Of a DNA stretch of 64,000 bases, positions 9,444-12,500 are shown piece by piece (within the stretch, counting starts at the first letter, position 1; each line of letters starts with the position of its first letter). The notes beneath the pieces are model-generated. The model worked only from the letters and a program-made list of their open reading frames with translations, was not told where the DNA came from and made no database searches. Origin of the DNA: Meghimatium bilineatum (lineage: Eukaryota > Mollusca > Gastropoda > Stylommatophora > Philomycidae). The position numbers and the translations under genes were made by a program. The stretch is from positions 1,643,001 through 1,707,000 of the forward strand of contig CM067312.1 in assembly GCA_034231615.1 (NCBI GenBank), written 5' to 3'.

Positions 9444-9587
9444 TATATTGACTTGTTGACAATGTCAACAATAGAATGGTTGGAAATTGAGGGTATCCGA
9501 AGCTATAGCCATGATGATGATTGTCAACGTATTACGTTCTTCAGACCACTTACTCTGTTGCAGGGAGCAAATGGCAGTGGTAAGACA
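9444..9587 (+). CDS. RAD50: RAD50 exon 1a (upstream alternative first coding exon)
   Basis: An acceptor-like tract ends in CAG at 9443, followed by an 18-nt leader, ATG at 9462 and 42 codons to the donor GTAAGT at 9588 (phase 0). The peptide starts [16 protein letters not shown] and carries Walker A GANGSGKT. It departs from the usual RAD50 N-terminus more than exon 1b does (Y for F after RS; A for P in the P-loop) but keeps all ATP-binding residues. The acceptor implies an upstream non-coding exon, which I could not place with confidence. Confidence 0.8.
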
Positions 9588-12500
9588 GTAAGTATGACCA
9601 GCACATCTTTCTTCAGCGTGCTCATTTATTTTATTGCAGTAAATTGATTTGTTGACAATGTCAACGATAGAACGGATGGGGATACAAGGTATCCGAAGCT
9701 TTGGTCCAGATGTCGGTGACTACCAGCAAGTGAAATTCTTCAAACCTGTCACTTTGATTCAAGGACCCAATGGCAGTGGCAAAACAGTAAGTGTCTTTTT
9801 GAATACAGAGGAAAGTATTTGTGTTTGAATCCCCATTAACTGTCAGAAATTCTTCATCTGCATTCAGGAATCTTTTGTTCTTGCTAGATCTTCCAGCTAG
9901 GACAAAGCTCCCAGTCTTCTCCGCAGGTTAAAGTGGCTGCCCCAAAGTTTTTGTCTCAGTTCAGTCCAGCGTGACCATGTCGTGCCTCACAGTTCTTTGT
10001 ACATATAATCTGTACTGTCTTGGAGTATGTGTTCAGTCCAGCGTGACCATGTTGTGCCTCACAGTTCTTTGTACATATAATCTGTACTGTCTTGGAGTAT
10101 GTGTTCAGTCCAGCGTGACCATGTCGTGCCTCACAGTTCTGTGTACATATAATCTGTACTGTCTTGGAGTATGTGTTCAGTCCAGCGTGACCATGTCGTG
10201 CCTCACAGTTCTGTGTACATATAATCTGTACTGTCTTGGAGTATGTGTTCAGTCCAGCGTGACCATGTCGTGCCTCACAGTTCTGTGTACATATAATCTG
10301 TACAGTCTTGGAGTATGTGTTCAGTCCAGCGTGACCATGTCGTGCCTCACAGTTCTTTGTACATATAATCTGTACGGTCTTGGAGTATGTGTTCAGTCCA
10401 GCGTGACCATGTCGTGCCTCACAGTTCTTTGTACATATAATCTGTACTGTCTTGGAGTATGTGTTCAGTCCAGCGTGACCATGTCGTGCCTCACAGTTCT
10501 TTGTACATATAATCTGTACGGTCTTGGAGTATGTGTTCAGTCCAGCGTGACCATGTCGTGCCTCACAGTTCTGTGTACATATAATCTGTACTGTCTTGGA
10601 GTATGTGTTCAGTCCAGCGTGACCATGTCGTGCCTCACAGTTCTGTGTACATATAATCTGTACTGTCTTGGAGTATGTCTTCAGTCCAGCGTGACCATGT
10701 CGTGCCTCACAGTTCTGTGTACATATAATCTGTACGGTCTTGGAGTATGTGTTCAGTCCAGCGTGACCATGTCGTGCCTCACAGTTCTGTGTACATATAA
10801 TCTGTACGGTCTTGGAGTATGTGTTCAGTCCAGCGTGACCATGTCGTGCCTCACAGTTCTGTGTACATATAATCTGTACGGTCTTGGAGTATGTGTTCAG
10901 TCCAGCGTGACCATGTCGTGCCTCACAGTTCTGTGTACATATAATCTGTACTGTCTTGGAGTATGTGTTCAGTCCAGCGTGACCATGTCGTGCCTCACAG
11001 TTCTGTGTACATATAATCTGTACGGTCTTGGAGTATGTGTTCAGTCCAGCGTGACCATGTCGTGCCTCACAGTTCTGTGTACATATAATCTGTACGGTCT
11101 TGGAGTATGTGTTCAGTCCAGCGTGACCATGTCGTGCCTCACAGTTCTGTGTACATATAATCTGTACGGTCTTGGAGTATGTGTTCAGTCCAGCGTGACC
11201 ATGTCGTGCCTCACAGTTCTGTGTACATATAATCTGTACGGTCTTGGAGTATGTGTTCAGTCCAGCGTGACCATGTCGTGCCTCACAGTTCTGTGTACAT
11301 ATAATCTGTACTGTCTTGGAGTATGTGTTCAGTCCAGCGTGACCATGTCGTGCCTCACAGTTCTGTGTACATATAATCTGTACGGTCTTGGAGTATGTGT
11401 TCAGTCCAGCGTGACCATGTCGTGCCTCACAGTTCTGTGTACATATAATCTGTACTGTCTTGGAGTATGTGTTCAAGGGGGATCTGCGAGCAATAATTTT
11501 GTACTTGGGGCCTGGACTGTTAGCTCAAGGTGTAAATATCTGTTACAGATACCCTATCCCTACTAATAAAAAGATGATGAAAACAACTATATTAAAATGG
11601 ATAAAGATGAAAACATAGTTTGTATATATATATATATATGTGTGTGTGTGTGTGTGTATGCATGTGTATATATATATATATATATATATATATATATATA
11701 TATATATATATATATATATAGTTGTGTATGTAGGCACCTGTACACGTGTATACGTTTTATTCACATGTATGCTTTCATAACAGTATGTACATTTGTTGCT
11801 TATATGTGTATATTTTTGTCTGTATATATGTTAATATTCGTTTAGTTGTGTGATTGTTTGTTGTTGTGTATATATTTTGATGTAAATCTATCCCACATGC
11901 TATCAATTGCTATTCTTCCTTGCACATTTCTATGTTCTCTGTATCTATTTGTAGCCCCCCCCCCCGCATACTAAGTTATTTTTCTATCCTTTCCCCTTTT
12001 ATCTTCCTTCCCTCTACTCCCCCCCCCTCCTTTCCATTCTTGGCATTGCGAATTGGTGTTCCATTTATTTATTTTTGCATTTTTCATCTTATACTTTGTG
12101 TTTTCATCTCATTATTTCTGTCTGTCAATATTGAACGCGTAATTCTGCACCTTGTCTAAATGATGCTGCAAAACCACGACTTGGGTAATGGCCTTTTGTA
12201 AGGAAGGCATTGTCTAGATGTGGTTGTTTTTTTACAACTTTTTATATTATTGTGTTGTCTTTGTTGGTTTTTGTTTCTTGATAAAGGTCCCAATAGAACA
12301 GACACTTCGATAATTGTCTTTGTTTTATGTTTTATTGTTATTTCTGATTATTTTGTAATGATAGTTATCTTCAGTAACCTGTGTACTTAACTTCGTATTT
12401 ACCTCACATTTGTATTATAATGTCTATAAGAAATGCATAGAATTTTCTATAACACATGTATGGTTTGTGTCTAATCATCTCTCCATGTCTGCAGAGAGTG

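Follow-up and report, generated by a model that had tools for sequence, protein, structure and literature searches.

Does the RAD50 gene of the slug Meghimatium bilineatum possess two interchangeable first coding exons, and in what would the two resulting proteins differ? The question arises from a window of 64,000 nucleotides (contig CM067312.1, positions 1,643,001 to 1,707,000), in which the sequence-only reading had reported two tandem first coding exons, each with an acceptor, an 18-nt leader, an ATG, a P-loop and a phase 0 donor. We re-derived the coordinates and found this description to be accurate. Exon 1a occupies positions 9444-9587 of the forward strand, with its ATG at 9462, 42 codons and a phase 0 donor; its acceptor reads tttttacag/TATAT and its donor GACA/gtaagt. 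Exon 1b (9640-9786, forward strand) has its ATG at 9658, 43 codons and a donor of the same phase, with ttattgcag/TAAAT at the acceptor and AACA/gtaagt at the donor. The two start codons are 196 bp apart. Both exons are flanked by AG and GT and encode a RAD50 N-terminus including the P-loop. When searched alone against the NCBIfam rad50 model TIGR00606, the peptide of 1a scored 35.2 bits (E 2.9e-9) and that of 1b 44.2 bits (E 5.5e-12). Among the matches listed when the 1a peptide was searched over the window, the best site outside exons 1a and 1b had an E value of 0.093. By these scores, the identification of 1a and 1b as RAD50 exons is far beyond chance. As expected of tandem-duplicated exons, they are homologous neighbors with canonical splice sites and equal phase.

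As a stand-in for the dN/dS analysis of exon 1a to which the sequence-only reading had pointed, we compared 1a with 1b. The 42 aligned codons encode 26 identical and 16 different residues, and nucleotide differences at codon positions 1, 2, and 3 number 9, 8, and 19, respectively. Synonymous sites are 65% different. The NG86 method gives a dN of 0.215 and a dS of 1.50, and LWL85 a dN of 0.207 and a dS of 0.996; YN00 yielded no estimate. The pN/pS ratio is 0.29 (bootstrap interval 0.16-0.49, with none of 5000 replicates at or above 1) and varies from 0.27 to 0.32 across seven gap placements. A very recent duplication is ruled out by this dS of about 1.0-1.5 and by the state of the intron flanks: the 3' flanks of the two copies are not alignable (130 of 200 shuffles did as well), and the 5' flanks align only weakly (1 of 200), clear similarity beginning at about the acceptor AG. 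On these measures the duplication is old and both copies have been preserved as coding sequence. Simulations bear on the history of 1a in particular. When 1a was simulated as neutral and 1b as constrained, at most 0.87% of 1500 runs reached a ratio as low as the observed one under any of eight settings. Under the four settings at the two higher divergences, whose synonymous counts are nearest to that observed, none of 1500 did. With both copies evolving at an omega of 0.15, such a ratio was reached in 70-88% of the runs. These simulations used equal branch lengths and 1b as the starting sequence, and are blind to a recent loss of 1a. They rule out that 1a was neutral throughout. By this test, 1a was therefore under selection as coding sequence through most of its history, though a recent loss would escape pairwise dN/dS.

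That blindness works in favor of a reading in which 1a is a leftover, long used and now silent or at noise level, while 1b alone makes RAD50. The higher score of 1b on the rad50 model would agree with it. So would the loss from 1a of K6, S8, F15, and V35, which are among the 22 positions that do not vary between three solved RAD50 chains (those we take to be human, yeast, and Chaetomium), and the appearance of its acceptor, which is weaker by eye and has its only yTnAy motifs within 70 nt at distances of 3, 58, and 67 nt. However, 1a retains 18 of the 22 invariant positions, one more than 1b with its 17. It shows no stop, frameshift, or splice-site damage, and neutrality over the whole interval is rejected by simulation. 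We hold it unlikely that 1a has fallen silent.

The leaders differ at 2 of 18 bases, far fewer than at synonymous sites (P 3.8e-6 if neutral at a divergence of 0.648, 0.06 at 0.3). Constraint, a hairpin, or partial gene conversion could account for this low divergence, for which the indications are weak. Both start codons lie inside the same predicted hairpin of 8 pairs with a 3-base loop (9453-9471 and 9649-9667). The corresponding 37-nt pieces fold at -8.1 (1a) and -7.4 (1b) kcal/mol, with z values of -2.0 and -2.3, and 7 and 2 of 200 shuffled pieces, respectively, fold equally well. We count the hairpin as weak because 136 and 84 of 2000 shuffles of the whole exons, respectively, give an equally long stem.

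Downstream of the pair, we recognized 20 further RAD50 exons, numbered 2 to 21 and extending to position 61692 of the forward strand. Exon 2 (15199-15288; 90 nt, phase 0) is shared, both 1a and 1b reading on into it. Exon 3 (17859-17969) is likewise shared and encodes a lysine at the third basic position of the S site (human R83, yeast K81). Exons 4-21 (24615-61692) contain the FCHQED region, the zinc-hook CPLC (exon 18), the RGRCSAGQK signature (exon 19), and Walker B (exon 20). The exon phases suggest that exons were probably missed between exons 9 and 10 and between exons 11 and 12. Joined to exons 2-6, 1a gives a head scoring 266.8 bits with TIGR00606 and 105.3 bits with AAA_23; with 1b, the scores are 275.8 and 107.9 bits. 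The AAA_23 cut-off is 27; that of TIGR00606, 453.75, applies to the whole protein, and these heads, as fragments, fall below it. The top PDB chain for the head is 9q9h_A, "DNA repair protein RAD50" (E 4e-70 with 1a and 4.3e-72 with 1b), which we take to be the human protein. The N-terminal ATPase half, with Walker A and the Q-loop region, is thus that of a RAD50, and the zinc-hook CxxC, the signature motif, and Walker B are found in the same gene, with frames disturbed just past the hook. Searched by itself, the open part of exon 18 gave no Pfam match. Exon boundaries were chosen by hand, and a canonical AG/GT pair can be placed at all 22 exons (1a, 1b, and 2-21); our script flagged the donor of exon 21 as set one base off. 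Judged by its motifs and family matches, this is an animal-like RAD50 gene.

In this incomplete exon model, a single open frame over the whole of RAD50 appears broken by one TGA and about five apparent frame changes. All of them fall at 51740-53040 of the forward strand, around and after the zinc hook: the in-frame TGA stands just ahead of the donor of exon 17, and the frame changes are spread over exon 18 from about 52713 to 53035. They could mean that this RAD50 copy is decaying or that the stretch was assembled badly, and in either case the locus would tell nothing firm about isoforms. However, the disruptions are confined to about 1.3 kb, 42 kb away from exon 1, and no inner stop was found in the checked translations of the other recognized exons. 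Because of this clustering, the AG/GT pairs at all 22 exons, and the absence of inner stops elsewhere, we think a local fault in the assembly more probable than a dead gene. We consider it improbable that the locus as a whole is decayed or unreliable.

The surroundings of the gene are rich in repeats. Minisatellite arrays begin or end at RAD50 splice sites at 28198-28409, 30490-30722, 52431-52578, 54049-54279, 54924-55280, and 61693-63103, and within some of them the donor itself is repeated (exons 7, 18, and 20). Six of the 44 exon boundaries have an array end at most 10 nt away, whereas 5000 circular shifts gave 1.3 on average and 0.24% of them reached six; the count of six leaves out the array at 60427-60551, which starts 11 nt from the donor of exon 20. 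A 72-bp unit is repeated about 21 times (98% matches) at 9959-11475, in an array that starts 172 bases past the last base of exon 1b. By eye, copies of a dispersed short repeat are visible in both orientations at 8950-9230, at 14900-15050, and near 4440-4720, close to exons 1 and 2. The scan of the window revealed no abalone-type repeat and no tRNA. A methyltransferase reading frame (Methyltransf_11, 58.2 bits) lies on the minus strand at 786-1394, divergent to RAD50; it presumably encodes a METTL7-type protein.

Would 1a and 1b be used one at a time? The interval from donor 1a to acceptor 1b (9588-9639, forward strand) is 52 nt long. This is an outlier, as the 20 other gaps between recognized exons measure 370-6645 nt, a few of which would be shortened by missed exons. 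Within the interval, the best placed branch-point-like motif is CTCAT, whose A, at position 37, lies 15 nt short of the 3' end. There are also two TTTAT nearer the 3' end, a TGAC at position 8, and inner AGs at positions 13 and 28. Any branch point inside the interval is close to donor 1a because the interval is only 52 nt long. CTCAT and TGAC, motifs recognized by sequence and unmapped, both lie less than about 50 nt from donor 1a, and a steric threshold of about 50 nt between donor and branch point is cited in passages of a study on OGDH (PMC7969005). In addition, the first codon of the 1b leader, TAA (9640-9642), is in the frame of 1a and would be the next codon if 1a were joined to 1b. The sequence-only reading had concluded that joint inclusion is blocked twice. 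The gap does disfavor joining, and the TAA bars a fused protein, but for translation the statement is too strong, because a doubly spliced mRNA could still start at the ATG of 1b. Some invertebrates do remove introns of about 52 nt, and a steric block depends on the organism. The geometry thus supports exclusion but does not prove it. We regard mutually exclusive use of 1a and 1b as the reading that would best fit the arrangement.

Alternatively, 1a and 1b might be first exons with separate start sites and separate regulation, rather than a classical mutually exclusive pair spliced from one leader. Each is a first coding exon, and a tandem set of such exons is known from UGT1A, where, according to passages of a review, each first exon has a promoter of its own and alternative N-termini are joined to common exons, as they would be in RAD50 (PMC9013439). 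However, 1a and 1b have both kept an acceptor, and the clear similarity of the two copies starts at about that AG; the 52 nt between them leave little room for a second promoter. A common upstream exon is only a candidate, which suits separate starts; such a candidate exists nonetheless, which argues the other way. It is a non-coding exon at 5401-5469 of the forward strand with a gtaagt donor at 5470. The bin 5401-5700 has the highest observed/expected CpG ratio (1.47) of the 32 bins over positions 1-9600. We treat the exon as a lead, its donor being one of six donor-like hexamers on the forward strand between 1401 and 9443. On balance, separate starts are in our view rather improbable. That 1a is a regulatory or poison exon, which joined to 1b would give a 42-codon upstream ORF ending at the TAA and lower the output of RAD50, is very improbable: a TAA directly after 1a and the ATG of 1b soon afterwards would suit it, but joining is disfavored by the 52-nt interval, and a poison exon has no need for RAD50 residues and an intact P-loop at a pN/pS of 0.29.

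What, then, would distinguish the two N-termini? The sequence-only reading had located the difference in the ATP site (GANGSGKT in 1a and GPNGSGKT in 1b). Our comparison does not bear this out. The P-loop, positions 36-43, changes only at position 37, a variable position that is P, M, and Y in the three solved chains, and R13, an ATP contact according to passages of a published study (PMC11661359), is kept in both copies. We therefore reject the ATP site as the place in which the two copies differ. The differences point instead to the S site, described in the literature passages cited here as the docking place of NBS1 and TRF2, where CtIP/Sae2 is thought to dock too. According to passages on human MRN, K6, S8, I24, R83, and Q85 form the walls of the pocket that takes up NBS1 F744, and K6, K22, R83, and K126 are contacted by TRF2 through its acidic cluster (PMC12446458). 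The rad50S alleles fall in the same region according to passages of three papers (PMC8219681, PMC11260466, PMC6167383), and a table in a further one gives yeast K81I and R20M, and mouse K6E, K22M, and R83I (PMC7247530).

All four S-site residues named in these passages and encoded by exon 1 (human K6, S8, K22, and I24) differ between 1a and 1b. At these positions 1a has W, E, C, and R, and 1b has R, G, Y, and Q. Four differences out of four, against 16 of 42 overall, correspond to a hypergeometric probability of 0.016, a value that takes no account of the drift of surface residues, which is the fastest in any protein. Strand positions 6, 8, 10, 22, 24, and 26 all differ, whereas the alternating positions differ at 2 of 8, both conservatively; positions 10 and 26 would face the same way as the S-site residues. 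The net charge (K and R minus D and E) is -2 for 1a, against +2 for 1b, human, and Chaetomium and +1 for yeast. 1a thus has W6 and a cysteine at the K22 position, whereas 1b has a basic R6 but a tyrosine at the K22 position, the lysine at the R83 position being common to both. At G8, Y22, and Q24 of the S site, 1b too deviates from the family, and it may not be the plain canonical form. The two proteins could therefore differ mainly on the regulator-docking surface and not at the ATP site, so that exon choice would act as an S-site switch.

The exons, their old divergence under coding constraint, and the positions of their differences can be read from the DNA. The explanation that we prefer, and to which we give a probability of about one half, is that an old duplication left two exons, both kept and spliced one at a time, and thus two RAD50 forms that differ at the S site. 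An old tandem duplication would have produced the two versions of the first coding exon. A common non-coding leader exon, possibly the candidate near 5470, would be spliced to either 1a or 1b and from there to exon 2. Joint splicing would be disfavored because 52 nt is too tight for donor 1a and the branch point of 1b, and a joined mRNA would meet the stop. Exclusive use, its steric cause, and a change in S-site binding are what we infer. The two proteins would have most of the ATPase, the hook, and the coils in common, with a different outer face of the first beta-sheet, which forms the S site. 1b would give the more canonical, CtIP-responsive RAD50. In 1a, where residue 6 is tryptophan instead of a basic residue and residue 8 is acidic, S-site binding would be altered or lost, and CtIP, NBS1, or a telomere factor would be bound in a different way; this form would be a natural relative of the rad50S alleles. 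As with those alleles, the S site is concerned: the alternative exon spans the K6, S8, K22, and I24 positions, and 1a has lost the basic residue 6. Unlike in those alleles, which are laboratory mutations, the change in 1a would come via exon choice and concern more residues, with the basic residue of the shared exon 3 kept. Mouse K6E is reportedly counted among the rad50S class. More speculatively, and with a good deal less confidence, the S site of 1a may have been rewritten (W6, E8, acidic) such that its own tryptophan perhaps fills the place of the aromatic anchor of NBS1 or TRF2. This would make 1a a switchable, physiological counterpart of rad50S, through which CtIP-driven resection or ATM control would be adjusted according to tissue or stage.

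Mutually exclusive tandem-duplicated exons are a known kind of arrangement, reviewed in PMC9013439 and treated also in PMC9741552, in which the term "RAD50" is absent. Exons 4a and 4b of OGDH, as described in passages of PMC7969005, resemble 1a and 1b in being homologous neighbors with a short interval, in having a branch-point motif less than 50 nt from the upstream donor, and in producing a local change in a conserved enzyme. The OGDH interval is 118-131 nt in birds and mammals, against 52 nt in RAD50. Unlike the OGDH pair, the RAD50 pair carries the start codon and the Walker A motif, and use of one exon at a time is inferred for it. A full-text search of the open-licence PMC literature returned no title or beginning of an abstract pointing to a RAD50 with such alternative first exons; the earlier statement had been that no described RAD50 with alternative Walker A exons was known. 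As far as that search goes, a RAD50 in which the alternative part comprises the start codon and residues of the S site would be new.

To our knowledge, RAD50 is treated as one protein per organism. It is at the S site that resection, ATM activation, and telomere protection are balanced against one another. If our reading is true, two versions of this site under selection in one genome would offer a natural experiment on the purpose of the S site, and MRN would be retunable by splicing.
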